A DNA stretch of 64,000 bases from Candidatus Woesebacteria bacterium (GTDB taxonomy: Bacteria > Patescibacteriota > Microgenomatia > UBA1406 > GWC2-37-13): NCBI GenBank assembly GCA_020429045.1, contig JAGQLS010000003.1:1-64000 (forward strand), in the 5' to 3' direction. Of the stretch, positions 21,539 to 38,362 are shown piece by piece (within the stretch, counting starts at the first letter, position 1; each line of letters opens with the position of its first letter). Below the pieces are notes generated by a model. The model was given only the letters and a program-made list of their open reading frames with translations. It did not search any database and had not been told where the DNA came from. A program made the position numbers and the translations under genes.

Positions 21539-21543
21539 GCAGA

Positions 21544-22479
21544 TTATGTTTTATTGATAATTTCATCGATAATATATATCGGGCGAGCTTTCGTTTCCTC
21601 CACGACTACTTGAATGTATTTACCAATAATGCTTATTGCAAGTAGCTGAATGCCACCAAAAAAGACAATGGAAACAAGAATCGTCACCGCACCTTTGATT
21701 GGATTTCCAAAAAAAAGAAAAAGTAACAGATACCCAATGATAAACAGAAAAGAAGCGATGACAAGTAAAAATCCAAAATAAATCATAATATCAAGAACTA
21801 GATAAGAAAAACCAAAAATACCTCGCTCCGAATGCTTGATGTATTGATACAAATTGTACGAGCTGATGCCAAACTGTCGCTTCTTGCGCTTGTAGTGCAC
21901 ATATGCCGTTTTGAAACCTACCCATGCACGGAGGCCTCGATAAAACCGATATTTTTCCGGTATTTGCGCAAGTGCATGCATGACTTTTTTGTCTATTAAA
22001 CCATATGATCCAGCATTTATAGGAACTTCTATATTTGAAATTGACTTAAAAATTTTATAAAACAATTTTCTCGCTGCAGTTATCAATGCAGGATCTTCAA
22101 TTTTGTCTCGTATACCAAGTATAATCTGATAGCCCTGTTCCCACTTGTGAATAAACGTAGCAATTAAGCTAGGTGGATCCTGCATGTCTGCCTCATAAAA
22201 AATGAACGCATCTGCAGTCGAATGGTCAAGCGCTGCCTGACCGGAAGCCTCTGGTCCAAAATTTCGCGAAAGAAAAATGCCGGTGACGCGTGTGTCTTTT
22301 TTCACCAATGAGTTGATACGGTCTCTTGTTCTATCATTACTTCCATTGTCAACAAATATAAATTCAAACGTGTAATTTTTAATTTTAGATGTTGTTTGTT
22401 TTAACAATGTGTATGCTTTTTCAACATTCTTTTCTTCGTTGAAGCAGGGGATACCTATTGAAATACGTTTTCTTTTCAT
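21544..22479 (-). CDS. Polyprenyl-phosphate glycosyltransferase (GtrB/DPM1-type GT2)
   Basis: A 311-residue GT2 protein with ISIGIPCFNEEKNVEKAY, FIFVDNGSNDRT and the DxD-like motif YEADMQDPP near residue 97, the QDPP being typical of the DPM1/GtrB/ArnC group. Two transmembrane helices follow near residues 225-275. These enzymes load a sugar onto undecaprenyl phosphate, and the product is used by GT-C or GT39 proteins on the outer face, several of which are encoded nearby. It is coupled to rfbH and has its own promoter upstream. Confidence 0.87.
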   Translation of the reverse strand: MKRKRISIGIPCFNEEKNVEKAYTLLKQTTSKIKNYTFEFIFVDNGSNDRTRDRINSLVKKDTRVTGIFLSRNFGPEASGQAALDHSTADAFIFYEADMQDPPSLIATFIHKWEQGYQIILGIRDKIEDPALITAARKLFYKIFKSISNIEVPINAGSYGLIDKKVMHALAQIPEKYRFYRGLRAWVGFKTAYVHYKRKKRQFGISSYNLYQYIKHSERGIFGFSYLVLDIMIYFGFLLVIASFLFIIGYLLLFLFFGNPIKGAVTILVSIVFFGGIQLLAISIIGKYIQVVVEETKARPIYIIDEIINKT

Positions 22480-22502
22480 AGAAATACAAACAACTGAAAA
22501 CC

Positions 22503-22531
22503 ATTATATCAATAATGACTTGCATATGTAA
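22503..22531 (-). promoter_or_regulatory. Internal sigma70-type promoter for GT2-rfbH
   Basis: On the minus strand TTACAT (22531-22526) is followed after exactly 17 bases by TATAAT (22508-22503). The ATG of the GT2 gene (22479) lies 23 bases beyond the -10 box. The 110-base gap it sits in is the largest inside the minus-strand operon, so GT2 and rfbH can be expressed separately. I see no terminator in that gap. Confidence 0.6.
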
Positions 22532-22589
22532 CGAAAACAATTGAAATGAACTGTCCAATCTTTAGGCAGAAAATAGATGAGACAATTTT

Positions 22590-23480
22590 TCATCGTTTCA
22601 CGTATATTTTGTTTTTATCAATAGTATATTTCCGCTTTTCGTACCATGTGTATAATTCTTGTATTGCTTGATTCATTGGAGTAAATGTGAATGGACCTAT
22701 TTCCTTCAGTAGTCGAGTATTATCCCCACTATATTCTCTACCCATTCCCTTCTTTTTTACCTTCACTTTCAGTTTTTTTCCTGAAACAGCAATAACTTTC
22801 TGAGCGAGAGTAACCAAATCGTGTGTTTTACCAGAACATACATTGAAGTGTTTGTGTTTTGGTTTTTTTGATCCAACGAGTAATTCTATTATCTTGACAA
22901 GGTCATTGATATAAAGATAATCAAAAGTAATATTTTGATTAATGATGATATCCATGCCATATAAAGCAAAACAAATAGCGTTCGAAATAAAACGTAAGCG
23001 CCACTCTTCATATTTTCCAAACAAACCAAAAATACGCAAATCGTAAATATTGGGTGAACTTTTTATGTACTTCGACATAATATATTTTGAAAATCCATAA
23101 TCATCTATGGGAACATGATTGTCAAAAAAATCTTCAGGCGCCTTGGGAATTATATATCGCTTGTCGTATTCTGCTCCTGAACCAAAATAGATCATCTTGC
23201 CGTAGGAAGTGTGATTGCGGGCAAGATTGAAGAACATGCGTAAATTATTGTGTAAAACCATTGATTTATCTTTTTTTGATGTAAGAGTGGCATCATGAAT
23301 TGCACAGTGAATAACGATATCAAATTCATACTTTTTTAGATATGCTTCTACTTTTTTCTCGTCTAACAAGTCCAATTCTTTTGAAGATGGAGCAGATACA
23401 TTGTAGTTTTTTTTAAAAAATTCGTTTAGATTTTTCCCGATGAAACCGGAACCGCCCGTGAGAAAAATTCTCTTTTTCAT
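22590..23480 (-). CDS. NAD-dependent nucleotide-sugar reductase/epimerase (extended SDR)
   Basis: About 297 residues from the ATG at 23480, with GGSGFIGKN near residue 9, catalytic YGFSK near residue 140 and GSGAEY upstream of it. It sits downstream of the YerE-like enzyme and the P-loop kinase in the CDP-sugar operon. In yersiniose synthesis a YerF-type reductase follows YerE, so this SDR is a candidate for that step; a 3- or 5-epimerase role is equally compatible. A TATAAT box 6 bases before the ATG supports this start over an in-frame ATG six codons upstream. Confidence 0.78.
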   Translation of the reverse strand: MKKRIFLTGGSGFIGKNLNEFFKKNYNVSAPSSKELDLLDEKKVEAYLKKYEFDIVIHCAIHDATLTSKKDKSMVLHNNLRMFFNLARNHTSYGKMIYFGSGAEYDKRYIIPKAPEDFFDNHVPIDDYGFSKYIMSKYIKSSPNIYDLRIFGLFGKYEEWRLRFISNAICFALYGMDIIINQNITFDYLYINDLVKIIELLVGSKKPKHKHFNVCSGKTHDLVTLAQKVIAVSGKKLKVKVKKKGMGREYSGDNTRLLKEIGPFTFTPMNQAIQELYTWYEKRKYTIDKNKIYVKR

Positions 23481-23486
23481 GCAATG

Positions 23487-23492
23487 ATTATA
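23487..23492 (-). promoter_or_regulatory. -10 box giving a leaderless start
   Basis: TATAAT on the minus strand ends 6 bases before the ATG at 23480. It lies at the end of the upstream kinase gene and would allow separate leaderless expression of the SDR gene. No -35 box is evident. Confidence 0.45.
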
Positions 23493-23497
23493 CTGCA

Positions 23498-24097
23498 TTA
23501 TGGATCTTGTGGTGTAGAAGTTGTCAGCGATTCTAAGGAGTCAAAAATGTTTTGCGATAATTGATCAAGTGGCGCTTGAGTGTCGAGGATTGATGGCTCG
23601 GCAAAAGTAATGGATGTATAACTTTTATGAGCCCACCGATATTTTTCTATTGTGTCAATGGTGTGATGCACTCCGCTTGCTCTTCGAGAGTCGATACGTC
23701 TCTTTATCTCTTCTTCGTCCGCGGTGAGCTGAAAAATTCTTATCTCTATGCCTTGTTCTTGTAGTTTGCCATATAACTCTTCTAAAGGTTGCTTGAATTC
23801 TGCTCTTGAGAATGTACCGGTAAGCAGGGCTGGTGTGCCATTTTGCAAGGTTTCTGAAGCTCGCCGGCAAATAGTCTGGTATGCAGTAACCATTTGGTTC
23901 GTTTCAGGATCGGGTTCTAAAAGTCCCGTTTTGGGAAATAGTTCCCAGCGGGTTATGTCTACATCAAAAAGTGTTAAATTGGATTGTGCGGATAGAATAT
24001 CACCTAATGTTGTCTTCCTAGACAGTGGAGGACCACACAAAACGAGAACAAAAGGTTTATAACTTTTTATATTCTCGCTAATATCATTTTTTTTCAT
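23498..24097 (-). CDS. P-loop kinase-like protein (AAA_33 type)
   Basis: A 199-residue P-loop protein with Walker A GPPLSRKTT near residue 22, a following FDVDITRW acidic segment, and a late arginine-rich stretch (IKRRIDSRRAS) like the LID of small-molecule kinases. It sits 3 bases after the YerE-like gene. AAA_33 proteins phosphorylate diverse small molecules or nucleotides; APS kinase is excluded because that domain is present elsewhere in the operon. The substrate is unknown, and a sugar or sugar-nucleotide is a guess from context. Confidence 0.72.
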   Translation of the reverse strand: MKKNDISENIKSYKPFVLVLCGPPLSRKTTLGDILSAQSNLTLFDVDITRWELFPKTGLLEPDPETNQMVTAYQTICRRASETLQNGTPALLTGTFSRAEFKQPLEELYGKLQEQGIEIRIFQLTADEEEIKRRIDSRRASGVHHTIDTIEKYRWAHKSYTSITFAEPSILDTQAPLDQLSQNIFDSLESLTTSTPQDP

Positions 24098-24100: not shown

Positions 24101-25774
24101 TTATTTTCCTCTCAATTTTCCAGCGCTCCATTTCGCAAGCATGGGTTGTGCAGGATCTATAAATAATTCACAAACAATAGGGCCTTTATGTTTTTGCACC
24201 TTTTCGACTTTGTGCAAATCTGCATCGCTTGCTATTTTGACATAGTCAAAACCCCAGGCTTTGGTAAGTTTTTCAAAATTGGGGAAGCTCACGCCAGATG
24301 CAGGGTCTGCGGCAAATACTTTTTTAAAGTAATTTGTGTGCGTAGTACGAATAGAAAAGTATCCATTGTTATTCCAAATATAGAGTTTGATTGGTAGTTT
24401 GTGGTGTAAGACGGTTTGCAGCTCTTGAATGTTGAGCATAAGCGATCCATCTCCTTCCATGCAGACCACTGGTTGTTTGCCCGATGCGATACACGCCCCT
24501 ATTGCATATGGCAAACCCGAACCCATGTGGCCCAACCCTGCGTTGGTAAGAAAGCGTTGCCCACGCTTAACCCTGAGTGCTTGGTGTGGTCCAACGCTTG
24601 CCATACCGTCTGCTGTAGTTACGTGATGTCCATCAAGGTGTTTGCTGAGCTCTTCCAAAAATGCGTATATGTTCACATATCCTTTTTTTGGCGTGTAGCG
24701 ACTGGGGTCAATTGCTGGAACATCAATATCCCACCGATTGAGCGTAAGATCTTGGTTATACAATTCCTCAAGAAATGTTTTGGCGTCTGCGTGGACCGCA
24801 ACATCAGTGTTAATCATTTTTTTGTGAAGTTCATTTTCATCGATATCTACCATGATGACTTTTGCCTGAGTGGCAAAATTTTCATAATCGTATGAAGTTT
24901 GGGTAAGCTGCATGCGCTCTCCTACAACGAGAAGCACATCACAATTATCAATTGCCCAATTAGCCGGCTTGCTGCCGGGCACTCCTTGACGACCGAGATA
25001 CTGTGGATATTCGTAGGTTACCAAATCATCACACGTGAAAATCGTTGTTGCTGTGTTGATATTAAGTTTTTTCAACACCTTCCACAAAATTTCCTCGCCA
25101 CCCCCTAGCCTGATTCCGTTGCCAACCAATAACATCGGGCGTTTGGCATTTTTTAACATATCTACAATGGTTTTCATGGGGATCTTGTTGCTTGTTGTTT
25201 GGGAGAAAAAAGCAGGAAAGTATCCGCGTAGGTTCTTGGGGTCTACTTCTGCGGTTTGAATATCGAGCGGAATCTCAACCCACGATGGTCCGGGGCGTCC
25301 ATGGGTTGCAAGATACACTGCCTTTTCAAGATGATAGCGGATATCTTCGGGGTGTTCAACTGTCTCGGCATACTTGCTCATGGGTTTTACCATATCTATG
25401 ACGTTGAGTTCTTGAAATCCTGTAGCTCGTACCATTTGACCGCCATTATTCTTGCGCGGAGTAATGTTGTCTGTTTTGACCTGACCGTTAATGACAAGCA
25501 TTGGTATGCTATCAAGCCAAGCGCCAGCTGCACCGGTTATTGCATTGGTGCCACCAGGACCGGTAGTTACAAACACGACACCTGCTTTATTGGTCATTCT
25601 TCCATATCCCTCTGCAGCTATTGCGGCTGCTTGTTCGTGGTGCATGCAATAGGTTTTGAGTTTCTTTGCTCTTCCTAATGAATCAACGATGTGCATGATA
25701 CCTCCGCCGGAAAGGAGAAATGCGGAATCAACATAATTCTCAACAAATTCCACAATATAATCACTCAATTTCAT
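24101..25774 (-). CDS. yerE: Thiamine-diphosphate enzyme, YerE-like (acetolactate synthase fold)
   Basis: A 557-residue three-domain ThDP enzyme. Catalytic Glu47 lies in HHEQAAAIAAEGY, and the ThDP-metal motif GDGS (441-444) is followed about 25 residues later by NNN (468-470). In this operon, with rfbF, rfbG and rfbH, the best match of role is YerE. YerE uses pyruvate to add a two-carbon unit to C4 of CDP-4-keto-3,6-dideoxyglucose, on the way to yersiniose. Plain acetolactate synthase is the alternative, but no small regulatory subunit or branched-chain amino acid gene is nearby. The specific YerE call is inference from context. Confidence 0.72.
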   Translation of the reverse strand: MKLSDYIVEFVENYVDSAFLLSGGGIMHIVDSLGRAKKLKTYCMHHEQAAAIAAEGYGRMTNKAGVVFVTTGPGGTNAITGAAGAWLDSIPMLVINGQVKTDNITPRKNNGGQMVRATGFQELNVIDMVKPMSKYAETVEHPEDIRYHLEKAVYLATHGRPGPSWVEIPLDIQTAEVDPKNLRGYFPAFFSQTTSNKIPMKTIVDMLKNAKRPMLLVGNGIRLGGGEEILWKVLKKLNINTATTIFTCDDLVTYEYPQYLGRQGVPGSKPANWAIDNCDVLLVVGERMQLTQTSYDYENFATQAKVIMVDIDENELHKKMINTDVAVHADAKTFLEELYNQDLTLNRWDIDVPAIDPSRYTPKKGYVNIYAFLEELSKHLDGHHVTTADGMASVGPHQALRVKRGQRFLTNAGLGHMGSGLPYAIGACIASGKQPVVCMEGDGSLMLNIQELQTVLHHKLPIKLYIWNNNGYFSIRTTHTNYFKKVFAADPASGVSFPNFEKLTKAWGFDYVKIASDADLHKVEKVQKHKGPIVCELFIDPAQPMLAKWSAGKLRGK

Positions 25775-25824: not shown

Positions 25825-26811
25825 TCATCGGGTTAGCAAAAAATGAATCGCTCTATAGACTGTCTCAATAGGATGTAGTTGTTGGTCTGAATATCTATCT
25901 AAAAGCGGATATGGTTTTGATAGAAATACACCTTGAGGTATTTGATGCTTCTGTGAATTCGTAAATGTGTAAGGAAAATCCGAGTCAACCAAGATACCTT
26001 TGTCGTTTCCGTCTGGCATATCGCCGATAACCACTACTTGATTATCATTAAGAACGAGTTCTGCCATAACATGCTCAAGAGCTGCTAATTTTGGATCTTT
26101 TCCTTCAAACGAACGCGTTATATGGGCAAATGTTTCGTCTCCACGGCTTATCTGCAGATGTATATCATGGGTTTGCTCAAGATTTTTAATAATTTGAACC
26201 AATTTGTCTAAAAGAGCTGAATGTTGTTTTATAGTCTGTGGCAGTACAATGCTTATTTTAACATCCTCAGCAAAACACCAAGGATATGGACGACTTGCCG
26301 AAAGAACTTGAGGATTTATAATTTTATCCCACGACTGTGCTTTCATTTGTAAAAACATCCTTAATCCGTTGCTATTGAGCTTGTTTGCCTCAATATGTTC
26401 TTCCTTATATATTCGATTCACTTCTTGGATAATCTGTTGCACAATTTCCAATGGTATATTATGACAATATATGCGTTCAGTTTTTTTGGGGAAAATACGA
26501 TACATCATTGTACCATTACCTCCAGCGAAATATACATGCGGACTACGATCGACCGGCTGTAATAATTTCTGTAGGACAGGAACGAGAATTTGGTAGCCAG
26601 TAGCAGCTCGGGCGGAAATAATAACCAGTGATGCGAAGTGATTTATGATCTCTTGCATACACGATTTAGCAGAATCGATAGTGTAGAGATCGCTTCCTGA
26701 AGCAACAAGAGTGCCGTCGTAATCGAGCGCAAAAAGTTTCAAATCTTTTTTTGCCCGATTAAGCATTGTTGAAGTTCTCCTACTTGTTGGTCCAACTTGT
26801 TTTTTTGTCAT
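25825..26811 (-). CDS. HAD-superfamily phosphatase (type IIB, Cof/sucrose-phosphatase-like)
   Basis: About 328 residues; an ATG at 26766 is an alternative start. Motif I is FALDYDGTLV, motif II VIISARA, the lysine motif EGKDPKLAAL and motif IV GDMPDGND, all intact. A large cap domain lies between motifs II and III, as in sugar-phosphate phosphatases. It sits between the methyltransferase and the ThDP enzyme genes in the CDP-sugar operon, 50 bases before the latter. Dephosphorylation of a sugar phosphate, such as a NeuB-type product, is possible; the cap does not identify the substrate. Confidence 0.8.
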   Translation of the reverse strand: MTKKQVGPTSRRTSTMLNRAKKDLKLFALDYDGTLVASGSDLYTIDSAKSCMQEIINHFASLVIISARAATGYQILVPVLQKLLQPVDRSPHVYFAGGNGTMMYRIFPKKTERIYCHNIPLEIVQQIIQEVNRIYKEEHIEANKLNSNGLRMFLQMKAQSWDKIINPQVLSASRPYPWCFAEDVKISIVLPQTIKQHSALLDKLVQIIKNLEQTHDIHLQISRGDETFAHITRSFEGKDPKLAALEHVMAELVLNDNQVVVIGDMPDGNDKGILVDSDFPYTFTNSQKHQIPQGVFLSKPYPLLDRYSDQQLHPIETVYRAIHFLLTR

Positions 26812-26847: not shown

Positions 26848-27999
26848 TTATCTTAATAAATCTCTAAACCTGAATACATGCCTTACCCCAAAACTGCGTG
26901 CACGTTCTTCAATCTCTGGCGTAGAGTTAACCGCAAGTATGATCACCACGTCGGGTTCCATAAGGCGTATTACGTCGGGCTCTTCAATCTTTGTACCGTG
27001 CACCTCGTCCAGAAATGACCCTAAATAACTATCCACAAGGGTGAAAGGGTGATCTTTTGTTAAGCCTCCAAATCGTACCAATGCATCAAAAATCCTACCC
27101 GCTCCCCAGAGAACAACTTTTTGTCGGTCCATAAATTCCTCTAATTTTTTTGTCACGGTTTTTAATTTCTCTCTATTATTTTGTAATCTTTGAGCGTAAT
27201 CTTTAATAAGACTCTTATATGTTTCTACTCGCTGCTTATTTTCTTTGATCGATGGAGATTTGGATTCGTATTTTTTGTTTTTTTGCAACACGAGAGTGAT
27301 GTGCCAGTTGTCATCATCGTGTTGTCCGGAGAGAATATCGAACCCGATATTTCGCACAATTTGGCAAAGAATATCTCTATCAAAATGATACGCGTGCTTA
27401 TCGTAAAAAAATTCTTCGACCGTATCTGAGTAGTTAATAACAGCTATGTTGGGAACTTCGATGAATGCATAACCACCAAACGAAAGCAAATGAAACATAC
27501 GTACGAACATATCTTTAGCAGAGTCTGCATGCTCCAGTGTGTGAAAACAATAAATAAAGTCAAAGATCTTTTTTGCAAAATCTACTTTTTCAAAACGATC
27601 TTGCAATAATGTAAGGTTGGAAAGATCTTTATATGGTTTTACGATGTGCTTGTCTGGTTCAACGGCTGTAATTGATTTCCCAGGATAATTCTTTTTCAAC
27701 CAAAAAATAAAATCGCCTCGATTAGCACCGATATCAAGTACTGTTTGTAGTGTGTCGAAAGGAATCTTGCTTTTGAGCAAATCATTGTTTTGGTCGAGGC
27801 GCAATTTTTTACCATGGCGAATATTGCCCCAACCAGCGCCACTACTGGTACTGACAACACGTTTTTTATTTTTTTGCTTTGTATATATACTCTGAGCTAA
27901 ACCACACTTTTCACATAAACATACGATTGCGCCACGGTCCGAAGCAGGCACAGAATACACTTGTAGTAATGATCCGGAACAAAAATCGCATTTCTTCAT
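26848..27999 (-). CDS. Zn-binding SAM C-methyltransferase-like protein (Methyltransf_23 with C-terminal domain)
   Basis: A 383-residue protein in three parts. Residues 1-45 hold CDFCSG and CLCEKCG, a four-cysteine zinc site. A class I methyltransferase follows (VLDIGANRGDF, FIYCFHTLEH). The C-terminal part has VVLWGAGRIFDALVRFGG, a Rossmann-like domain found in sugar C-methyltransferases of the TylCIII/NovU type. It is in the operon for CDP-sugar and sulfation genes. C-methylation of a keto-sugar would suit the context, but that specificity is inference. Confidence 0.78.
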   Translation of the reverse strand: MKKCDFCSGSLLQVYSVPASDRGAIVCLCEKCGLAQSIYTKQKNKKRVVSTSSGAGWGNIRHGKKLRLDQNNDLLKSKIPFDTLQTVLDIGANRGDFIFWLKKNYPGKSITAVEPDKHIVKPYKDLSNLTLLQDRFEKVDFAKKIFDFIYCFHTLEHADSAKDMFVRMFHLLSFGGYAFIEVPNIAVINYSDTVEEFFYDKHAYHFDRDILCQIVRNIGFDILSGQHDDDNWHITLVLQKNKKYESKSPSIKENKQRVETYKSLIKDYAQRLQNNREKLKTVTKKLEEFMDRQKVVLWGAGRIFDALVRFGGLTKDHPFTLVDSYLGSFLDEVHGTKIEEPDVIRLMEPDVVIILAVNSTPEIEERARSFGVRHVFRFRDLLR

Positions 28000-28018: not shown

Positions 28019-28855
28019 TTAATACTGAACTGTGTACACTTCCTTATCTAAATAGCCACATTTCCGCAGTGTGTCTCCTGCTATTTCCTCAAACTGTTGA
28101 AGTTGTTTTTTGTTTAATGAAAAATCCATGGGAACAAACACGTTTTGTGGACGTTGCATATAGGTAAACATATCATCAGTGTATTCGATATCTATAAATG
28201 AAAGAAATTGGGAAAAAATCTCTTTATTTTTTGTTAAATCTTCGAGTTTCACCGTCATTTTTTGCTTCTTGGGAATTACAGATAACGATTTTTCAATGGT
28301 AGTAAGAACTTGGTTCCAATGGTAACAAATGCGCTGATATTGATCAAAACAAGGAAAATCCTCATGATGAGGTTGATTTTTTTGGGGAATATTCCACCAA
28401 TATTTTTTTTCTGGAGGCGGCTCTGGATATTTTTTTGGGTTCTTGAGCCAGTTTTGCATAGCTCGTACGCTTACGTCGTCATAAATTTCTGGTGAAAGCT
28501 TATGAAAATACGAACTGGTCACCTTTCGACCATCGCGCATAACGTGTATAAACTTTGCTTGTGGAAACATGTCATATAGCGGCTTTACAATCCACGACAA
28601 TTTATTTGAACAGTCGATCCAATATTTTGCCTTACTATAATAAATCCCTGCGCCATGAAGGTGGTTTATTTCTTCTTTTGTTTGTTTATCATTGAAAAAA
28701 CCCATGAAATATTTGCAGGCAACGGGTTGGATGTGCGTACAAAGGTATTCGTGGTAGACCTCAATATGTTCATGTCCCGATAAAAGCCTAAAAAGCATCC
28801 GAGTACCAGATCTTCCTGATCCAATAATAAAAACAGGCACGGTTTTATTGGGCAT
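28019..28855 (-). CDS. PAPS-dependent sulfotransferase
   Basis: A 278-residue protein. The 5'-phosphosulfate loop is IIGSGRSGTRML near residue 9, and the 3'-phosphate-binding stretch is FIHVMRDGRKVTSSYF near residue 102 with conserved Arg and Ser. It has no signal peptide, so it acts in the cytoplasm, presumably on a lipid-linked glycan or nucleotide sugar. Its start overlaps the end of the sat/cysC fusion by 11 bases, directly pairing PAPS synthesis with its use. The acceptor is unknown. Confidence 0.88.
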   Translation of the reverse strand: MPNKTVPVFIIGSGRSGTRMLFRLLSGHEHIEVYHEYLCTHIQPVACKYFMGFFNDKQTKEEINHLHGAGIYYSKAKYWIDCSNKLSWIVKPLYDMFPQAKFIHVMRDGRKVTSSYFHKLSPEIYDDVSVRAMQNWLKNPKKYPEPPPEKKYWWNIPQKNQPHHEDFPCFDQYQRICYHWNQVLTTIEKSLSVIPKKQKMTVKLEDLTKNKEIFSQFLSFIDIEYTDDMFTYMQRPQNVFVPMDFSLNKKQLQQFEEIAGDTLRKCGYLDKEVYTVQY

Positions 28856-30575
28856 ATGGTGTTTGAATAGTAATATAGTTGTTGTCTTTGAGAAATGAAA
28901 TGATTTTTTCTACGCTTTCTTTGGGTTTCATATTGGTTGTGTCTATGGTGAGCTCTGCTTGTTCTGGTTGTTCATACGGATCATCGAGTCCGGTGAGTCC
29001 TTTTATTATACCTAATTTGTATTTTTTATATAATTCTTTGGTATCACGTTGCATACATACTTCGACTGGAGTTGAAATATATATTTCTACATATCGTCCA
29101 TGTTTGCCAATGCGTTTTCGGTTCATCTGACGGGATTCAGCGTAGGGTGCTATAGCACTACAAATAGCTATACCTCCGTGTTTGGTGATAAGATCTGCTA
29201 CAAATCCGATCCTCTTTATATTTTCGTTTCTGTCCTCGTGAGAAAATCCGAGCCCTTTTGAAAGATTTTGCCGAATAATATCGCCATCAAGGAGCGTTAC
29301 GGGTTTATCTTGCAATTCAATGAGTTTGTAATACAGCAAGGTTGCCATAGTTGATTTTCCCGCGCCAGAAAGTCCGGTGAAAAAAATGGTAAGGCCATCT
29401 TTTTTTTGTTTTGCGATACCTTTTTGTAATTCTTCGATAATTTCCGGAAAGGAAAACCATTCTGGAATAGATTCACCCGCTTTTAACATGTTGCGCACTT
29501 GTGTGCCTGATATCTTTTTAACGCTATGTTCTTTCTTAACCTCGCTTACTGGGATATACGATTGTTTTTCTTCGACATACACAAGTTCCTGGAAAGGTAC
29601 AACGGTTATACCGAGCTCTTTTTCATATTTTTGAACCAGTTGCTGGGCGTCATATGCGCCATAATAATTTTTCCCTGCACTATTTTTGCCGGGCGACGCA
29701 TGATCTCGACCAACAATAAAATGTGTGCAACCATAATTTTTCCTTATGATTGCGTGCCATAGAGCTTCCTTGGGTCCAGCCATACGCATGGCTAAGGGTA
29801 AAAGACTAATGGTTGAAAAATCTTTGATGTATTTTTGTAATTGTATGTAGCTGCGAACTCTACTGATATAATCAACGTCTCCATCTTTTGTCATCCCAAC
29901 TGCAGGATGGAGTAGTACGTTTCCTTGATATTGTTCTGCGGCCTGTTTAATAAGAGCGTAGTGCACTTTATGAAGAGGATTACGTGTTTGAAAACCAATA
30001 ATCCTATCCCATTTTTTTTCTCGGAAAAAATCCTGCAACTGTTGAGGAGTATGGCGAAGATCACTAAAATCATAGCGCTCAATAGAATTGATGCCCTTGA
30101 TTGTCCCTCCAAAATAATACGAACCCATCTCGTTGAACAGGTGGTTTACACCAAAATGCTCTGTATTGGTCGTTCTGTAAATACTTTCTGCTTCCTTCTC
30201 TTTGTCGGGCTTATATATTGATTCTATATGCATAAGCGCCAAGGCTTTTCCAAATGAATCGGCAAGAATGATTTCCTGCCCCTCTTTAAAACGTCTTGCG
30301 TCGAGTGCTAATGTGATGGGTATTGACCAGACAATATCGTTTGCCAAACGCATCCTATCGACAACCGACTGATAATCGTCTTCGTTCATGAACCCAGTAA
30401 GCGGAGAAAATGCTCCGGTCATAAGAAGTTCCAGATCGCACAATTGCCGCTTGGTGAGATTTAAACGCGGTAGGCTCACCAGTTTTTTCTTTATATCAGA
30501 ATTGTCTCCTTGTCGCATCATGAGGTTTTGAACTGGTCCTTTATATCCAAGGTAAGTGTTGTTTGACTTTTTCAT
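28845..30575 (-). CDS. sat/cysC: Bifunctional sulfate adenylyltransferase / APS kinase (PAPS synthetase)
   Basis: A 576-residue fusion. Residues 1-385 are ATP sulfurylase with QTRNPLHKVH (196-205) and VGRDHASPGKNSAG (288-301). Residues 392-576 are APS kinase with Walker A GLSGAGKST (401-409) and DGDIIRQNL. Together they convert sulfate and ATP to PAPS. No cysH, cysN/D or sulfite reductase gene is in the window, so sulfotransfer rather than assimilation is the likely purpose. The gene overlaps cysQ by four bases and the sulfotransferase by 11. Confidence 0.93.
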   Translation of the reverse strand: MKKSNNTYLGYKGPVQNLMMRQGDNSDIKKKLVSLPRLNLTKRQLCDLELLMTGAFSPLTGFMNEDDYQSVVDRMRLANDIVWSIPITLALDARRFKEGQEIILADSFGKALALMHIESIYKPDKEKEAESIYRTTNTEHFGVNHLFNEMGSYYFGGTIKGINSIERYDFSDLRHTPQQLQDFFREKKWDRIIGFQTRNPLHKVHYALIKQAAEQYQGNVLLHPAVGMTKDGDVDYISRVRSYIQLQKYIKDFSTISLLPLAMRMAGPKEALWHAIIRKNYGCTHFIVGRDHASPGKNSAGKNYYGAYDAQQLVQKYEKELGITVVPFQELVYVEEKQSYIPVSEVKKEHSVKKISGTQVRNMLKAGESIPEWFSFPEIIEELQKGIAKQKKDGLTIFFTGLSGAGKSTMATLLYYKLIELQDKPVTLLDGDIIRQNLSKGLGFSHEDRNENIKRIGFVADLITKHGGIAICSAIAPYAESRQMNRKRIGKHGRYVEIYISTPVEVCMQRDTKELYKKYKLGIIKGLTGLDDPYEQPEQAELTIDTTNMKPKESVEKIISFLKDNNYITIQTPYAQ

Positions 30576-31390
30576 AGTGATGCTTGAATTATATCTACTA
30601 TCTGTTTGTGTATTGTGTTGTTTGAAACAACAACGCCATGGTGATTGTGCGTTGAAGATGTATCATTATATACTAATCGTCGCCCATATATGTCGGTCAT
30701 CGTTCCACCCGCCTCGCGCACGATAATTTCTGGTGCTGCGGTGTCCCAAATACTCGTCTTGTCCGATGTGTTTATGTAAATATCTGCTTTTTGTTCGACA
30801 ATCATTCCTACTTTCAAACCGAGACTACCCATCAGTATGCTTTTGTTTACACCAAGTTTCTCTAGGACGGCATCATCAGAGGGGAGGTGATGGCTCCTGC
30901 TTGATACGATATTCATATCGTGAATTATATTTTTTTTTGACACGAACATTTGTTTTGTTTTGCCATCGGGGGACCTCTTGTAGGCACCGTGGCCTTTGTG
31001 CGCGTGATAACCAATGTGGGTTACCGGACAATATATAACCCCAAGTATTGGAACACCTTTTTCAACAAGACCAACCATGATACAAAACTCGCCATTTTTT
31101 GTTATGAAGTCCGAAGTGCCATCTAGGGGATCGATAATCCATATATTGTCTGTATTTTTGCCCGTTCGCTTGCCTGTTTCTTCAGAAATAATAGAATAAT
31201 CATCTCGGGAGAAATGATCAAGAAGCATGCGTGAAGAAATCGTGTCTGCTTGAGTAACCGGCGATCGATCTTTCTTAACTTCAATTGAGAGAGGTGCCGT
31301 ATTTTGATATATGGCTAAAATACGAAACGAAATCTTTTGAAGCACATCATACACTTCTTCTATTTGTTGTTCGCGTGATTGTGCCGTCAT
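30572..31390 (-). CDS. cysQ: 3'(2'),5'-bisphosphate nucleotidase (PAP phosphatase)
   Basis: About 272 residues of the inositol-monophosphatase fold. The metal-site motifs are ISEETG near residue 68, DPLDGTSDFI near residue 85 and WDTAAPEIIVREAGG near residue 216. CysQ hydrolyses PAP, the inhibitory by-product of sulfotransferases, to AMP. The ATG at 31390 overlaps the neuB stop by four bases (ATGA) and is preferred over a TTG nine bases upstream. Adjacent PAPS synthetase and sulfotransferase genes make PAP recycling the probable role. Confidence 0.9.
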   Translation of the reverse strand: MTAQSREQQIEEVYDVLQKISFRILAIYQNTAPLSIEVKKDRSPVTQADTISSRMLLDHFSRDDYSIISEETGKRTGKNTDNIWIIDPLDGTSDFITKNGEFCIMVGLVEKGVPILGVIYCPVTHIGYHAHKGHGAYKRSPDGKTKQMFVSKKNIIHDMNIVSSRSHHLPSDDAVLEKLGVNKSILMGSLGLKVGMIVEQKADIYINTSDKTSIWDTAAPEIIVREAGGTMTDIYGRRLVYNDTSSTHNHHGVVVSNNTIHKQIVDIIQASL

Positions 31391-32934
31391 TCTATCCAAT
31401 GTTTTAAATATGTTTTTCTATCTTTGTTCTTATTAATGGTGTCGTCTTCATAAAACGAATCTTGTTTGAAATGAGTTGAGGAAATTTCTTCAATGATACC
31501 GCCTTTGGGAGCAACAAAACTATGATGCACGCCCCGTTCAATGGTCACCAGGTCGCCTGGTTTGTAAATCTTTTTTTTGCCATCGAGTATCACGTGAAAA
31601 TTACCATATAACACATGAAATGTCTCCTCTTTCTTTTTGTGATATTGAATAGGATGCAACTGCTTTGGTAACATGACGATGAGCTTCTTGCAGTAATCAC
31701 GATTGATACACGTGACAAGCGTAGCGCCAACTTCATAAAATTTCTCCATCCCATAGTGGTGTGAAATCTCGATGTCAACATTTTGCGGCATAATCACATT
31801 GCCTTTTTTAATGATGTCGTTGACCTTAAGGACAATCGCTAATACGTCTTCGCGCATATTCTTAAATTGTATGTTGTTGGGCATGATGGGTTCTTTTGCT
31901 TTTATATCTGTCTTTGCATACATATACATATATTTTGATAAGTCGTTGGCGACTAATTGATCTTTCTGATTAGGAAATGCATTAAAAACGCCACTGGATT
32001 CGATTCTCTGACCTTTTTTAATATCGTATTTTGCAAAAACACCTCGTTTGAATTGTCGTAAATCTGACATTTCTTTTTCGGTGAATTGGGCGCGTTCTCC
32101 AATAACACCACCAACATCGATTGCCTTTTGTGCTGATTCAAGCCATGCTTTGATTTGCGATGGGGTAGAGGAGTAAGCATTTTTCGCATATTTTTTTGTT
32201 TCTACAGCAACATGACGTTCAAAAATCGACGCACCTTTTGCTAGGGCAAGTTGAACCGGTATGGCGTTACTCGGCTCCTCGTGTGTCGAAAATCCGATGA
32301 CAACGTCTGGATACCGTTGTCTTAAAAGATCTATTTGATTGAGTTGTAATTCTTCATCTGGTGTTGGGTATTTTCCTACACAATGCATGATGGCGAATTG
32401 TTTTTTTCTATTTTGAAAAAAATTCACCACCCGATCAATGGTCTCAAGCGATGCCCCGGCTGTTGAGGCAATAATAGGCTTGTCTGTTTTTACAATACAT
32501 TCAAGAAGTGGCCAATCGCCAAAAGAACAACTACCAATTTTAATGACGTCAAAATTGTGTTTTACAATGAGATCGACGGATACTTCGTCAAAAGGCGTAC
32601 AAATCGAAATAAAACCGAGTCGTTCCATTTCTTTTCTCAAGGCCAACGCCTCCTTATCGAGAAGCTTGGTTTCTGAGAATCGCTTCACGTATTTTATGTC
32701 TTTTCTGTCTGCATAGTCGGGGTGAATGAACGTGGGAATATCACGATACTGTAATTTGAATGCAAAACGAAAATCAAATTGTTCTTTGACTTTATTACAT
32801 TCTTTAATGATGCGTAGTCCATGCTTAAGGTCTCCCATATGGTTATTTGCCATTTCAAAGATAAATAGGGGCTTAAAAGGATTCTTTTTTTTTCGTGTAA
32901 AAATTTCTGCGATGATCTTATTTTTACTTTTCAT
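31387..32934 (-). CDS. neuB: NeuB-type sialic-acid synthase with SAF and C-terminal cupin domains
   Basis: A 515-residue fusion. Residues about 20-280 are a NeuB TIM barrel (FIFEMANNHMGDL, SICTPFDEVSVD, IASTAGAS, FSTHEE). Residues about 285-350 resemble an SAF antifreeze-like domain (KRGVFAKYDIKKGQ). Residues about 375-500 form a cupin with HPIQYHKKKEETFHVL and HHSF metal ligands. NeuB enzymes condense phosphoenolpyruvate with a six-carbon amino sugar to make nonulosonic acids. The cupin tail, similar to sugar-isomerase cupins, is an unusual addition. No CMP-sialate synthetase is in the window, so the end product is open. Confidence 0.85.
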   Translation of the reverse strand: MKSKNKIIAEIFTRKKKNPFKPLFIFEMANNHMGDLKHGLRIIKECNKVKEQFDFRFAFKLQYRDIPTFIHPDYADRKDIKYVKRFSETKLLDKEALALRKEMERLGFISICTPFDEVSVDLIVKHNFDVIKIGSCSFGDWPLLECIVKTDKPIIASTAGASLETIDRVVNFFQNRKKQFAIMHCVGKYPTPDEELQLNQIDLLRQRYPDVVIGFSTHEEPSNAIPVQLALAKGASIFERHVAVETKKYAKNAYSSTPSQIKAWLESAQKAIDVGGVIGERAQFTEKEMSDLRQFKRGVFAKYDIKKGQRIESSGVFNAFPNQKDQLVANDLSKYMYMYAKTDIKAKEPIMPNNIQFKNMREDVLAIVLKVNDIIKKGNVIMPQNVDIEISHHYGMEKFYEVGATLVTCINRDYCKKLIVMLPKQLHPIQYHKKKEETFHVLYGNFHVILDGKKKIYKPGDLVTIERGVHHSFVAPKGGIIEEISSTHFKQDSFYEDDTINKNKDRKTYLKHWIE

Positions 32935-32963: not shown

Positions 32964-33932
32964 TTACATACAATCTTTCTGTTCTGTATACCAATCAAAT
33001 ACTGTTTGTGTGATGGTTTTTAGCGTTCGTTTTGGTTCCCAAGATAATCTTTTTTTAATTTTTGTAAAATTGAGCGATTGATATGGAATCTCATTTTTAC
33101 TTTCGTTGAGTACTATGTATTGTATTTTTTGCTTTAAAGCTTTTTCAACCTCCTGTATGAGCGCTAAAACCGAATACGTTTCATGCGAACCGAAATTAAA
33201 TGCTTCTCCTTTTATTTCATCAATGTGTTGTGCAAGGAGAATATATCCATCGACTACGTCTTTGACGTAGAGGTAATCCCGAACATGAGAGCCATCGCTG
33301 CGTAGTTGCAATGTTTGATTGGTGATGAGCGATTTCATAATACCTGGAATGATGCGAGAAAAATTGAGATCCCCTTCTCCATAGATGTTGCCGAACCGTG
33401 TTGTGACAACCGGAACATCATATGTTTTGTAATATGAGGTAGTGATAAGATCCGCGGCAGATTTGGAAACTTCATACGGGTGGTCGCCCCTCAACGGATC
33501 GCTCTCTTTATATTTATCTTTTCCTTCCAGTTTGCCGTACGCTTTATCTGAAGAGGCAACAATGATGCCTTTAATACGTGGATATAACCGAGCACTCTCA
33601 AGAATATTGATAGTTCCTCGGATGTTGGTGTCCAACGTTCGCCGAGGATTATAATATGCGGTTTCGACCAAAGGTTGCGCAGCAAGATGAAAAATGTAAT
33701 CTATTTCTGATTTGGTAACTAAATCAAATAGCCGCTCAAAATCTACAATGTCGACCGGAGCTACAGTAACTCGCTTCGAAAGTTGTTGTTGTATAAAATA
33801 TGAGTAGGGATTCAATGATTGATACGTGGTGATAACATGAACTCCAAGATTATCTAGATCTTCAACCAAATGAGAACCAACAAAACCGGTACCGCCAGTA
33901 ACTAAAATGTTTTTTCCGTTTAATGTGCTCAT
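32964..33932 (-). CDS. rfbG: CDP-glucose 4,6-dehydratase-like SDR
   Basis: A 322-residue extended SDR with VTGGTGFVGSHL near residue 9, ASSDKAYG near residue 126 and catalytic YEVSK near residue 152. The SDKAYG followed by DPLRGDHPY pattern is that of RfbG-type dehydratases. It lies 13 bases after rfbF and upstream of rfbH in the same operon, which fits production of CDP-4-keto-6-deoxyglucose. It is shorter than enterobacterial RfbG (about 355 residues), so substrate identity rests partly on context. Confidence 0.78.
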   Translation of the reverse strand: MSTLNGKNILVTGGTGFVGSHLVEDLDNLGVHVITTYQSLNPYSYFIQQQLSKRVTVAPVDIVDFERLFDLVTKSEIDYIFHLAAQPLVETAYYNPRRTLDTNIRGTINILESARLYPRIKGIIVASSDKAYGKLEGKDKYKESDPLRGDHPYEVSKSAADLITTSYYKTYDVPVVTTRFGNIYGEGDLNFSRIIPGIMKSLITNQTLQLRSDGSHVRDYLYVKDVVDGYILLAQHIDEIKGEAFNFGSHETYSVLALIQEVEKALKQKIQYIVLNESKNEIPYQSLNFTKIKKRLSWEPKRTLKTITQTVFDWYTEQKDCM

Positions 33933-33945: not shown

Positions 33946-34722
33946 TTACCATACCTTCCATGGTGGGGTATCGGATAGCCACATTTCATTTAATACGCTA
34001 ACTTCTTTATATGTATCCATGCAATACCAAAATTTATCATGTTTGTAGAGCGATAACTGTTTTTTTGCGGCAAGTCGTTTTAAAGCAGCGTGTTCGAGTT
34101 CACCTGGATTGATATAATCAAAAAATCGTTTATCAAAAATCATAAATCCGGCATTGACCCATCCTTTGAGTATGGGCTTTTCGACAAATTCAGTAACGAT
34201 ATTATTGTCTCCGACTCTTGGTATCCCAAATTTCGTTATTGGATTGACACCTGTTATAGTCCCTATTGTTTTTTGCTTCTTATGAAATGCAACCAAGTCT
34301 TTTACATCTAAATTGATGACTCCATCGCCATATGTAACCATAAAATAGGTGTCTTTTTTTGGTAGATAATCGCGGCAAAGAAGAATACGCTCGCCGGGGA
34401 GTGTGTCGACTCCAGTGTCTACAAATGTAATCTTAAAGTCGTCAATTTCTTTCCTATTCTCAAGATGATACGTTATATGATGATCTTTTGTTTGAAGCGT
34501 AAAATCAGTGACGAATGCTTTTTGGTTGAGGAAAAAATCTTTGATGTAATCAGCTTTATATCCAAGCGCTAGAATAAACTCGTTAAACCCTGCTGCGGCA
34601 TAAATCTTCATAATATGCCAGAGAATAGGTTTGTTCCCGATCATGACCATCGGCTTTGGTTTAAATTCCGTTTCTTCTTTCAATCTTGTCCCTGTGCCTC
34701 CGCAAAGTATGATTGTCTTCAT
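33946..34722 (-). CDS. rfbF: Glucose-1-phosphate cytidylyltransferase
   Basis: A 258-residue enzyme, the family's usual length. It opens IILCGGTGTRLKEET and continues with KPKPMVMIGNKPILWHIM, the RfbF signature, with YGDGVINLD as metal site. It makes CDP-glucose from CTP and glucose 1-phosphate, the first step to CDP-3,6-dideoxyhexoses. It heads the 13-gene minus-strand operon and has a promoter in the divergent region before 34829. Confidence 0.93.
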   Translation of the reverse strand: MKTIILCGGTGTRLKEETEFKPKPMVMIGNKPILWHIMKIYAAAGFNEFILALGYKADYIKDFFLNQKAFVTDFTLQTKDHHITYHLENRKEIDDFKITFVDTGVDTLPGERILLCRDYLPKKDTYFMVTYGDGVINLDVKDLVAFHKKQKTIGTITGVNPITKFGIPRVGDNNIVTEFVEKPILKGWVNAGFMIFDKRFFDYINPGELEHAALKRLAAKKQLSLYKHDKFWYCMDTYKEVSVLNEMWLSDTPPWKVW

Positions 34723-34761: not shown

Positions 34762-34828
34762 TAAAGTCTGGTGACTTTTATTCACAAGATTAAGTATATT
34801 GTACATTATATCAAACGTCTTGATACAT

Positions 34829-36349
34829 ATGAATAAAAAACTGCAGCTTACGGCACTTGGTATCATCATTTTGCTTGGGTTTTGGCTAAGGATAAGCAGT
34901 ATCGCGCACCAGGCTTCGTACTGGAACGACGAAAGCAATGTCGCATTATACGCTCGAACATTATTGCAAACGGGTGAAGCAACAGATTCAACCGGTTATA
35001 CAACGGGGCTATACCAGTCGGGTATGTACTATGTCACCAGCCTCTCGTTTGTTGTGTTTGGTGTCAACGAGTTTGCCGGCAGATTCCCTTCTGTTGTCGT
35101 CGGAACCATACTGATCGCTGTTGTCTATATAGTGACGAATGAACTGATGGGAAAGAAAGAAGCCCTCACAGCGGCTTTTTTCACTTCGTTCCTACAGATT
35201 CAACTCGCGTGGTCCACACAACTGAGGCCATACATATGGATGGAACTTTTCACAATTCTTATTGTGTACTATTGTTATCGTAGCGCGCAATCCAAACGCG
35301 TGATAGAAAAAAACATTTTTATCGCCCTGTTTTTAAGTTTTATTTCCTTCTTGTTTCACGGCATTGGTGTTTTCAACGGTGTGATAATTGCCGGTATTAT
35401 TTTATATAAAAGTCTACGAGACAAACACTATGCAGCATTAGGGTTGTTGGTTGTCTTGGGAGTTGCAACTCTTGCTGGCATACTGACCACGCCGTTTGGG
35501 AGTAGGGAAATGTTATTAAAATATTATACCGACACGCTTCACTATAGAACATTCTTGCTTGCTAACTATCTTTGGTTACTTACAGGCGCGCTGATGGGAA
35601 CATATGCTCTCTCAAAAAAAGAAGCGCAGAAAATGGACCTTTCAATTTTACTCGCGGGAAGTGTAGCTGTGATATTTATTTTGGCCAACTTCAAAGTCAA
35701 TCCGCGACATGTACGACATTCGCTACCTGCGTTTCCATTGCTTTATATACTATGCAGTGTAGGGATTGTTTGGCTCGGAGAAATACTGCACTCGATGCTG
35801 CGGTTTGTACAACTTGATACAAAAATCGACAAAAAAGGATTTCTTTCGTGGTTTTTTGCTTTAGTACTTTTTTGTGTTTTCCCGCTGTACAGACATAAAC
35901 TTATTTTGTCTCCTCAATCATACTATTCCATAAACGCTGACGTACGTGAAAATCCTTTGCCGGATTATAAAACCGCCTTTGCAAAAATCAAAACACTTGT
36001 CGGCGATAATCGAGATATCATCATTTTGGATAGTTGGTACGATCGTGTGCTCTGGTACCTACCGGGACAAACGTATGGGTGGTTATTCAAAAATCCAAAT
36101 GCAACGTCGGTTGCAACCGCAGAAGAATTTGAAGCACTGAAGAAAAATCGCTCATCTGGTATAGTAATTGTTGAAAATTGGCAGAGCTTGGCTTCTGAAA
36201 ATCTGCAAAATCATATTCGCGAGACATTGTATCATGAATTTGATCAGGGAACGGTTGTAGGGAATGAAAATGATTCCTGGACTATCAGCGTGTATAGTTG
36301 GGGCATACATGACCAACCAGTTGAAAATAAACAATATTTGCATGATTAA
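34829..36349 (+). CDS. GT39/ArnT-like membrane glycosyltransferase
   Basis: About 506 residues, with roughly 10-11 membrane helices in the first 340 residues and a soluble tail. The first loop carries SYWNDESNVALYA, the acidic DE motif of PMT/ArnT-type GT-C enzymes, and LRPYIWMEL follows later. Such enzymes move a sugar from a polyprenyl phosphate on the outer face. The ATG at 34829 (MNKKLQL) is preferred to one at 34799 because a membrane helix follows it closely. It overlaps the flippase downstream by eight bases. Confidence 0.75.
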   Translation: MNKKLQLTALGIIILLGFWLRISSIAHQASYWNDESNVALYARTLLQTGEATDSTGYTTGLYQSGMYYVTSLSFVVFGVNEFAGRFPSVVVGTILIAVVYIVTNELMGKKEALTAAFFTSFLQIQLAWSTQLRPYIWMELFTILIVYYCYRSAQSKRVIEKNIFIALFLSFISFLFHGIGVFNGVIIAGIILYKSLRDKHYAALGLLVVLGVATLAGILTTPFGSREMLLKYYTDTLHYRTFLLANYLWLLTGALMGTYALSKKEAQKMDLSILLAGSVAVIFILANFKVNPRHVRHSLPAFPLLYILCSVGIVWLGEILHSMLRFVQLDTKIDKKGFLSWFFALVLFCVFPLYRHKLILSPQSYYSINADVRENPLPDYKTAFAKIKTLVGDNRDIIILDSWYDRVLWYLPGQTYGWLFKNPNATSVATAEEFEALKKNRSSGIVIVENWQSLASENLQNHIRETLYHEFDQGTVVGNENDSWTISVYSWGIHDQPVENKQYLHD

Positions 36350-37604
36350 AAAAGGCGTAATTGTCACCAGTATTTTTATTTTTTCAACCGCGATTCAACT
36401 CGCGAGTCAAATTGTTGTAGCACAACTATTTGGACCGCGATTGCAACTTGATATATTTCTAGCAGCAGTTGTGATACCGGCAATTGTAGTCACGGTTATT
36501 TATGGTACGTTTAATGATGCTTTTTTACCACTCCTAGGCAGACACAAGAAAAACAAAGACGCTTTTTTTGTAAACCACCTTATTGCCATAACGATGATAA
36601 CGATTGCTGTTATGGTACTTTTCATAATTTTAAGCCCCTCGCTGGCACGGGCACTCTACAGCAGTAGGGGAGCAATCTTTATACAAGCGGTAAGCGTGCA
36701 AATGCGTATATTGTTTCTTGCGGTGCCCCTTGCTACGATCGCTACCCTGTGCGGGAGTTACTTTTATGTGCAGAAACGCTTTGTTCGTTTTCCTCTTGCT
36801 CAGGCAGTAGGAAGCTTAACAAACTTAATGAGTATTGCGGTGTTGTCTGCAACGATCGGAATATGGGCCCTTGTTGTAGGCTTCATTTTCAACATTGTGA
36901 TACAAATTTTGTTTGTTATACCAAATCTTCGGATGAAATATTCATTCCTCTTTCCCAATTTAAAACCATTTTTAACAGCACTCGTACCGCTTATTATCGG
37001 TTCGTTTGCCCTACGCTCAGACGTACTCATTATCCGATCGTTCGGTGCACAACTCCCTGAAGGGTATTTACTCTATCTCAATTTGATCTCGCGCATTTTT
37101 TCTGTTGCTGCTGGTGTAATGACGATTAGTATTCAAATTGTTTTGCTCCCTCATCTGGTTGAATTTTTATCGCAAAAACAATACGCAAAAACAGTCTCCT
37201 ATGTCAATCGTGCAAAAAAAGTAAGTATTCTCATTTCCCTTATGGTAGTGGGAGCGATCGTCGTTGTGGGACCATTAGTCATACGCTTGCTCTTTGTGGG
37301 TGGCAAATTTTCACTCGCGGATGCTGAAATCGCATCCGGCATGATTCCATATTTCATACTCCCTGGCCTAGCGTGGGGTGTAAATAGCGTTTTTTTCCAA
37401 CCACTTGTTGCACTCAAAAAGCAATTTGCACTTGGCATAGTCAATGTCGTGGCACTTTGTCTGGGGCTGATATCTGCTATGGTGGCAAACACACGCTGGG
37501 GAGCATTCAATGCGATCATAATCGGTATTACCATGTTATTATTTGTTGGTATTTTGGGTAGCGAACTGCTATGGAACATATACAAAAAAAGTCTGATATC
37601 GTGA
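36342..37604 (+). CDS. MurJ/MVF-type lipid-linked glycan flippase
   Basis: About 420 residues and 12 or more hydrophobic helices. The N-terminal region contains SQIVVAQLFGPRLQLDIFLAA, and FNDAFLPLLGRHKK follows, a pattern of the MurJ/MviN family (FSxxFVPxF). MurJ moves lipid II; in a glycan locus a homologue may move another lipid-linked unit. The start at 36342 (MIKKGVIV) overlaps the GT39 gene by eight bases, and the end overlaps a GT2 gene by 34 bases. Confidence 0.8.
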   Translation: MIKKGVIVTSIFIFSTAIQLASQIVVAQLFGPRLQLDIFLAAVVIPAIVVTVIYGTFNDAFLPLLGRHKKNKDAFFVNHLIAITMITIAVMVLFIILSPSLARALYSSRGAIFIQAVSVQMRILFLAVPLATIATLCGSYFYVQKRFVRFPLAQAVGSLTNLMSIAVLSATIGIWALVVGFIFNIVIQILFVIPNLRMKYSFLFPNLKPFLTALVPLIIGSFALRSDVLIIRSFGAQLPEGYLLYLNLISRIFSVAAGVMTISIQIVLLPHLVEFLSQKQYAKTVSYVNRAKKVSILISLMVVGAIVVVGPLVIRLLFVGGKFSLADAEIASGMIPYFILPGLAWGVNSVFFQPLVALKKQFALGIVNVVALCLGLISAMVANTRWGAFNAIIIGITMLLFVGILGSELLWNIYKKSLIS

Positions 37605-38362
37605 GCATCATCATTGTGCATTATCTTGCGACAAGTGCAACCATGCGACTCCTGCGGACCATAGAAAAAAAGTCGACTTTTGAGGTTATCCTCGTTGACA
37701 ACGGTCCAGATTTCACGCTTAAAGAAGCTATACAAAAACAGTTTCCTTGGGTTATCTATGTTTCCAAACGCATAAACCTTGGCTATGCCCAAGCAATAAA
37801 CCTAGGGATAGAACACGCACACGGACAATGGTTCATGCTCTTAAATAACGATGTACAAACAAATGCTGCAACAATTGATGCGCTCGTGAAAAAAACGAAA
37901 GCTGTCGATGGCTTGGTGAGTGTGCCAAGATTGGAAGATAAGAATGGTGCGGCGGCAAATACCGTCGGTTACTTTGATGCGTGGTGGAAGCATCCAGTAA
38001 ACGCACTGTTTGTTCGGCCTCGAGTTATTGATCAAAATAAATTCAATAAACCAACACGTATCGATTTTGCTACTGCCGGAGCCATGTTGATAAACAAACA
38101 AGTGAACGAAACAGTTGGCCCGTGGGATAATCGTTTTTTTATGTATTTTGAAGACATGGATTATTGCCTCCGGTTGAAAAAAAATCAAATTTCGCTGTGG
38201 TACTTCCCCGATATCGTCATGCGTCACGAGAAAAGTTTGACCGCAAACCAAGACCGCAAACAAAAAAATGTAAATTATCATACATCATTAAATACATATC
38301 TCCTTAAACACCGTGGTGCTATCGTCGCAATGATGAATCGATTTTTCCATGCGTTGCGCTGA
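37571..38362 (+). CDS. Glycosyltransferase family 2 (rhamnosyltransferase-like)
   Basis: A 263-residue GT-A enzyme with VSIIIVHYLATSATM, VILVDNGPD and the WFMLLNNDV metal-site region. The motif FFMYFEDMDYCLRLKK near residue 192 is typical of WbbL/RfbF-type rhamnosyltransferases. Its start lies 34 bases inside the upstream flippase gene. The donor is likely a deoxyhexose nucleotide, but this rests on family resemblance only. Confidence 0.85.
   Translation: MEHIQKKSDIVSIIIVHYLATSATMRLLRTIEKKSTFEVILVDNGPDFTLKEAIQKQFPWVIYVSKRINLGYAQAINLGIEHAHGQWFMLLNNDVQTNAATIDALVKKTKAVDGLVSVPRLEDKNGAAANTVGYFDAWWKHPVNALFVRPRVIDQNKFNKPTRIDFATAGAMLINKQVNETVGPWDNRFFMYFEDMDYCLRLKKNQISLWYFPDIVMRHEKSLTANQDRKQKNVNYHTSLNTYLLKHRGAIVAMMNRFFHALR

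Follow-up and report, generated by a model that had tools for sequence, protein, structure and literature searches.

A predicted PAPS-dependent sulfation cassette in a sugar operon of a small, probably CPR-type bacterial genome

What role do genes for the synthesis, use and clearance of activated sulfate play inside a polysaccharide operon of a bacterium with a small genome? This question is raised by three genes on the minus strand at 28019-31390 of the window analysed here, which covers the opening 64 kb of contig JAGQLS010000003.1 (115 kb) from a Candidatus Woesebacteria genome. In the order of transcription they encode a CysQ-like 3'(2'),5'-bisphosphate nucleotidase (30572..31390, 272 aa from its ATG), a bifunctional fusion of ATP sulfurylase and adenosine 5'-phosphosulfate (APS) kinase (28845..30575, 576 aa) and, last, a sulfotransferase of family PF13469 (28019..28855, 278 aa). 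Very probably, this trio is a cassette that serves the sulfation of a surface glycan or glycoconjugate with 3'-phosphoadenosine 5'-phosphosulfate (PAPS) as donor.

The three open reading frames (ORFs) are consecutive and overlap by 4 bases (CysQ-like/fusion) and 11 bases (fusion/sulfotransferase), exactly as given in a preliminary description of this DNA made from the sequence alone. For the phosphatase, the ATG at 31390 is the preferred start and matches the end coordinate of that description; an alternative upstream TTG at 31399 gives 30572-31399. From the ATG, the gene overlaps by 4 bases with the stop of the preceding gene, which encodes a NeuB-type synthase with a C-terminal cupin domain (NeuB-cupin). 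Since overlaps of 4, 4 and 11 bases follow each other in series, the four genes from NeuB-cupin to the sulfotransferase are probably translationally coupled. No Rfam match and no tRNA was found in the 64-kb window.

The key motifs of the three enzymes, noted as present in the preliminary description, were confirmed. The fusion matched the Pfam domains ATP-sulfurylase (267.5 bits), APS_kinase (192.9 bits) and PUA_2 (161.5 bits), and with 785.9 bits it scored above the cut-off of 669 for NF004040, the NCBIfam equivalog of the bifunctional enzyme. Its ATP sulfurylase part contains QTRNPLHKVH and GRDH, its APS kinase part LDGD, DDPYE and the P-loop GLSGAGKS, which is intact here whereas the fungal allosteric homologue (chain 1i2d) has the degenerate GYMNSGKD. 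The closest solved relative is the ATP sulfurylase (SAT)/APS kinase 2gks (558 bits, residues 31-568). By family search the fusion is the sole ATP sulfurylase of the genome, and it is predicted to synthesise PAPS from ATP and sulfate.

The sulfotransferase reached 59.9 bits against Pfam Sulfotransfer_3 (PF13469, cut-off 27) and is the only PF13469 gene found in the genome. The preliminary description had singled out the catalytic residues of this protein as decisive; its PAPS-binding motifs proved intact, with GSGRSGT at 12 (5'-phosphosulfate binding) and RDGRKVTSSY at 107 (3'-phosphate binding), and PAPS-dependent sulfo transfer is predicted for it. When the sulfotransferase was searched for in phages no match was obtained, and in plasmids one weak match. 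The phosphatase scored 178 bits against Pfam Inositol_P and has the metal-site motifs SPVTQAD, SEE, DPLDGT and WDTAA. Its closest solved relative is CysQ (3b8b). Against homologues linked to fusions in genomes G157, G351 and G407 it scored 169-189 bits, against an unlinked paralogue 85. From these features it is predicted to hydrolyse 3'-phosphoadenosine 5'-phosphate (PAP) and so to clear it.

Other uses of PAPS were sought by family searches of the genome, which comprises 1.19 Mb in 58 contigs. No NIR_SIR (sulfite reductase) domain was found in this 95% complete genome and no PAPS_reduct/CysD domain above cut-off, the one sub-threshold match (20.7 bits) lying in a 535-aa ORF. Sulfation is therefore the only PAPS sink found in the genome. 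The preliminary description had seen no sulfate-reduction gene in the window and had proposed a genome-wide search for cysH, cysI and cysN/D; no gene for sulfate reduction turned up among the window genes scanned, and the genome search just described agrees. Ribosomal protein L30, the lack of which is a known trait of the candidate phyla radiation (CPR), was not found in the genome either. Given this absence and the small genome size, the organism probably belongs to the CPR, as had been guessed from the window.

Based on the established chemistry of the enzyme families, a mechanism can be proposed. The fusion would convert sulfate and ATP to APS and on to PAPS, and the PF13469 enzyme would pass the sulfo group of PAPS on to an acceptor synthesised by the sugar operon around the trio. 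PAP would then be hydrolysed to AMP by the CysQ-like phosphatase; this would lift product inhibition and draw the reaction forward. Through the probable coupling to NeuB-cupin, the capacity for sulfation would be produced together with the sugar pathway. The cassette is probably functional. As acceptor, a glycan produced by this operon is most likely, given the probable coupling to NeuB-cupin and the repeated association with glycan loci described below. The sulfation of a surface glycan proposed earlier is supported by the intact motifs, the absence of detected reductive genes and the glycan-gene context. Gene content, motifs, gene order, the lack of detected reductive genes and the recurrence in relatives are direct observations; the enzymatic activities, the glycan acceptor and the surface location we infer.

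The trio is surrounded by genes for sugar-nucleotide enzymes, glycosyltransferases and a flippase. Upstream on the minus strand lie NeuB-cupin (31387..32934; Pfam NeuB 131 bits, Cupin_2 39 bits), a sugar-nucleotide dehydratase/epimerase of the short-chain dehydrogenase/reductase family (32964..33932), nearest to CDP-glucose 4,6-dehydratase models at NCBIfam scores below cut-off, and a sugar-1-phosphate nucleotidyltransferase (33946..34722), nearest to glucose-1-phosphate cytidylyltransferase (TIGR02623, 257 bits, cut-off 300). Immediately downstream of the trio, on the same strand, follow an S-adenosylmethionine-dependent methyltransferase (26848..27999; Pfam Methyltransf_23, 59.4 bits), a HAD-family phosphatase (25825..26811; Pfam Hydrolase_3) and a thiamine diphosphate (ThDP) enzyme assigned to the acetolactate-synthase family by profile matches (24101..25774). 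The remainder of this minus-strand glycan run (20285..24097) encodes a kinase-like P-loop protein, an epimerase, a GT2 glycosyltransferase and a DegT aminotransferase. Divergent glycan genes on the plus strand (34799..39338) encode a PMT_2 glycosyltransferase, a MurJ-like flippase and two GT2 proteins. The combination of NeuB, CDP-sugar-like and ThDP enzymes suggests a nonulosonic or branched acidic sugar.

Is the trio an original part of this operon? Among 380 genomes of the same phylum, full-length NeuB-cupin homologues were found in G122, G433, G143, G139 and G396, the closest being those of G122 (57%) and G433 (55%). Around NeuB-cupin, G122 has kept the adjoining cytidylyltransferase and homologues of the ThDP enzyme, GT2 and DegT, and G433 has kept the ThDP enzyme and the HAD gene. 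The ThDP enzyme, which matches its homologues in both genomes with about 800 bits, is a conserved partner of NeuB-cupin. The trio is absent from both loci. As G122, and in part G433, have the sugar operon without the trio, we read the trio as a plug-in that was probably added to a sugar operon of older origin, built around NeuB-cupin and the ThDP enzyme. A general coupling of NeuB-cupin with PAPS genes was considered and rejected, since its two closest homologues lack the trio.

Relatives of the fusion were found by an alignment-based contig scan; a scan with the single fusion as query gave no confirmed relative. Full-length fusions are present in 2 of 72 genomes of the same family and in 9 of 380 across the phylum. 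PF13469 matches occur in 28 of the 380, and five of the nine fusion genomes have both. In favour of a sulfation cassette, sulfotransferases are enriched in fusion genomes even when the window genome is left out (4 of 8 versus 23 of 371 others, one-sided Fisher p=0.0012, uncorrected for relatedness). A CysQ-like gene adjoins the fusion with 4-base overlaps in G157, G407 and G432 and after a short gap in G351, which has four sulfotransferase matches on its fusion contig. G407 combines fusion, CysQ, NeuB and sulfotransferase in one set. On a contig named Patescibacteria (L060) the fusion is followed by an ABC-2 permease, a PF13469 protein, glycosyltransferases and Bac_transf. In Candidatus Uhrbacteria (L061) it lies in a glycan locus, and no PF13469 gene was found in that genome. 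A second type of patescibacterial sulfation locus was found in G396 (L151:1310-15220); it comprises CysD, CysN/C, a sulfotransferase, Capsule_synth, a NeuB-cupin homologue (40%), a CMP transferase and a UDP-GlcNAc epimerase. The preliminary description had asked whether the trio is conserved beside glycosyltransferases in relatives: PAPS genes plus a sulfotransferase lie in or near glycan loci in L060, G407 and G396, and the loci of G122 and G433 lack the trio.

The fusion of G407 (L053:8039-10789, 916 aa) is peculiar in that it consists of a pyruvate-kinase barrel followed by PUA/ATP-sulfurylase and APS kinase parts; it overlaps the CysQ-like gene by 4 bases in the glycan locus with NeuB and sulfotransferase. 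The pyruvate-kinase barrel might provide ATP or drive the reaction. At two other loci (L020:13885-18406 and L047:8870-13321) the SAT-APS kinase fusion lies beside a gene with a PAPS_reduct domain, in convergent orientation, and a large gene of phosphodiesterase type, and neither genome yielded a sulfotransferase or a sulfite reductase. Stand-alone APS-kinase-like genes near sulfotransferases in G322, G330 and G329 were considered as a further source of PAPS but left uncounted, since several are paired with a cytidylyltransferase-like gene and may thus be of the Cj1416/Cj1415 type. Cytidylyltransferase-like and APS-kinase-like genes, adjacent or fused, were seen at L149:10660-11592, L150:6962-7851, L153:7464-8278, L152:12488-13225 and L022:3461-4270; they resemble Campylobacter Cj1416/Cj1415 of phosphoramidate synthesis and are prone to mis-annotation as CysC.

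A quick tree built from 33 fusions placed the protein of the window in a fully supported clade with those of G252, G047, G348, L060 and L061. A second, distant group was formed by G407, G157, G351 and G321. As all members of the window clade are from this phylum or are named Patescibacteria or Uhrbacteria, the fusion appears to have circulated within the phylum and not to have been acquired recently from outside it. The tree also bears on the possibility that the contig was binned wrongly and that the cassette comes from an ordinary bacterium. In a genome of 58 contigs the assignment of any one contig depends on binning. However, the contig is 115 kb long, contamination is 0.35%, and the GC content of the trio (0.37-0.41) matches that of the window (0.39). 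Moreover, the NeuB-cupin and ThDP homologues with the closest synteny were found in genomes of the same phylum, and together with the fully supported clustering among patescibacterial fusions this makes contamination very improbable.

Could the cassette do something other than sulfate a glycan? A sulfation system could have a glycolipid, a protein or a small metabolite as acceptor, its proximity to glycan genes reflecting only that accessory genes share a position. The family PF13469 comprises sulfotransferases in general, and the weak best PDB matches of the sulfotransferase are protein-tyrosine sulfotransferases. Yet the likely translational coupling with NeuB-cupin and the repeated occurrence of PAPS genes and sulfotransferase with glycan loci in unrelated lineages make such an acceptor unlikely. 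Alternatively, the fusion could serve sulfate assimilation from PAPS to sulfite and sulfide, the sulfotransferase being incidental. ATP sulfurylase and APS kinase are common to the assimilatory route, and in G047 and G348, where no sulfotransferase and no sulfite reductase were found, the fusion lies beside PAPS_reduct-domain and phosphodiesterase-like genes. Assimilation is nevertheless highly improbable, as the window genome has no PAPS_reduct domain above cut-off and NIR_SIR is missing from it as well as from the 13 other genomes with a fusion or an APS kinase. Even less credible is a Cj1415-like kinase acting on another nucleotide, with phosphoramidate instead of sulfate as the product of the module. 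APS-kinase-like proteins of glycan loci can be cytidine diphosphoramidate kinases, and the APS-kinase-like Cj1415 of Campylobacter acts in methyl-phosphoramidate synthesis (PMC11800397); pairs of cytidylyltransferase and APS-kinase-like genes do occur in the phylum. The kinase described here, by contrast, is fused to a complete ATP sulfurylase, has intact motifs, exceeds the bifunctional-equivalog cut-off and is adjoined by the CysQ-like and sulfotransferase genes.

Several observations weigh against a sulfation cassette dedicated to a glycan. The sulfotransferase is only weakly similar to characterised enzymes, with no PDB match better than E=0.039, and its AlphaFold model from single-sequence input was uninformative (predicted local distance difference test score 35). 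The phosphatase scored 185.7 bits against the CysQ model TIGR01331, under the cut-off of 228.8; this model is still its best match, above rival models of the inositol monophosphatase (IMPase) family, and owing to the shortfall we call the protein CysQ-like only. A sulfate importer was not identified, SulP being absent from the genome and other importer types not having been searched for. The earlier term self-contained module was thus too strong. In G047, which belongs to the same family, the fusion lies away from glycan genes and next to the PAPS_reduct-domain gene, and no PF13469 gene was found. Finally, the counts behind the enrichment of sulfotransferases in fusion genomes are uncorrected for relatedness.

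Some further features of the contig were noted. A 1231-aa ORF without Pfam match (47496-51191) is followed by a gene for an RNA-binding protein with an RNA recognition motif (51327-51665). Beyond the window, at contig positions of about 67000-98500 (L056, L057), lies a prophage-like region that encodes an LPD38 protein together with major capsid and portal proteins of SU10 type. It includes a gene for a reverse transcriptase (RVT_1, 78 bits) at contig 92449-93543, which may represent a diversity-generating element. Immediately past it, a protein with phospholipase D-like and SNF2/helicase parts (L057:14935-18219, contig 98935-102219) is suggestive of a defence island.

CPR-type bacteria are generally regarded as living in attachment to other cells, with very few biosynthetic pathways. 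That an ATP-consuming pathway with sulfation as its sole detected use is retained would mean that a negatively charged, sulfated surface is worth the cost, perhaps for attachment or for evading phages or host defences. A tentative generalisation, which we regard as a real possibility rather than as probable, is that sulfated surface glycans, probably in part containing nonulosonates, are a recurrent and undescribed trait of Patescibacteria. In that case sulfation would have arisen several times through the insertion of different PAPS enzymes, either fusions of two clades or CysD-CysN/C, into NeuB-type sugar operons, and it might serve adhesion to host cells or recognition by them. The signature of a PAPS gene plus a sulfotransferase is a simple genomic marker for lineages with testable surface chemistry. 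Genes for sat in CPR bacteria have been listed as sulfur-cycle genes (PMC12153355); some of them may serve sulfation. In a literature search of partial coverage, and hence as weak evidence, neither sulfotransferases nor sulfated glycans were recognised as described for CPR/Patescibacteria. The preliminary description had called a dedicated sulfated glycan in a CPR-type genome unusual and possibly undescribed; the system is not unique to this genome, since comparable gene sets occur in several further lineages of the phylum.

How does the locus compare with known systems? The fusion shares domain order over its full length with the bifunctional SAT/APS kinases (NF004040/PRK05537; 2gks) but belongs to a clade seen only in small genomes of the same phylum and in patescibacterial and Uhrbacteria records. 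In two gammaproteobacterial records, L126 (BBSC-SA02) and L095 (Centralia_MAG_449), a fusion, a P-loop sulfotransferase and an IMPase-family phosphatase are consecutive, with the same functions as here. Their order is fusion-sulfotransferase-phosphatase, whereas here it is phosphatase-fusion-sulfotransferase. Their sulfotransferases are only 16-25% identical, that of L095 scores under the Pfam cut-off, and the alignment of these distant proteins together with that of L060 is too gappy for use. No polysaccharide operon was recognised alongside when the ORFs were read without a profile scan.

PAPS genes and a sulfotransferase within a polysaccharide cluster are a hallmark of sulfated polysaccharides (PMC11641403), and the window locus has this gene content. 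For the capsules of Cobetia marina KMM 1449 and Vibrio sp. KMM 8419, whose clusters contain PAPS genes and a sulfotransferase, sulfate has been chemically proven (PMC11766843, PMC11641403). As here, the genes for PAPS synthesis and sulfo transfer lie inside the polysaccharide cluster, in Cobetia together with cysQ. These clusters have CysD and CysN/C-type genes, kps export genes and dTDP-rhamnose sugars; the locus described here, in a reduced genome, instead has a SAT-APS kinase fusion that is probably coupled to NeuB-cupin and to a pathway resembling CDP-sugar synthesis. The sulfation chemistry is well known elsewhere; the novelty lies in finding it repeatedly in a phylum with reduced genomes that is probably part of the CPR.

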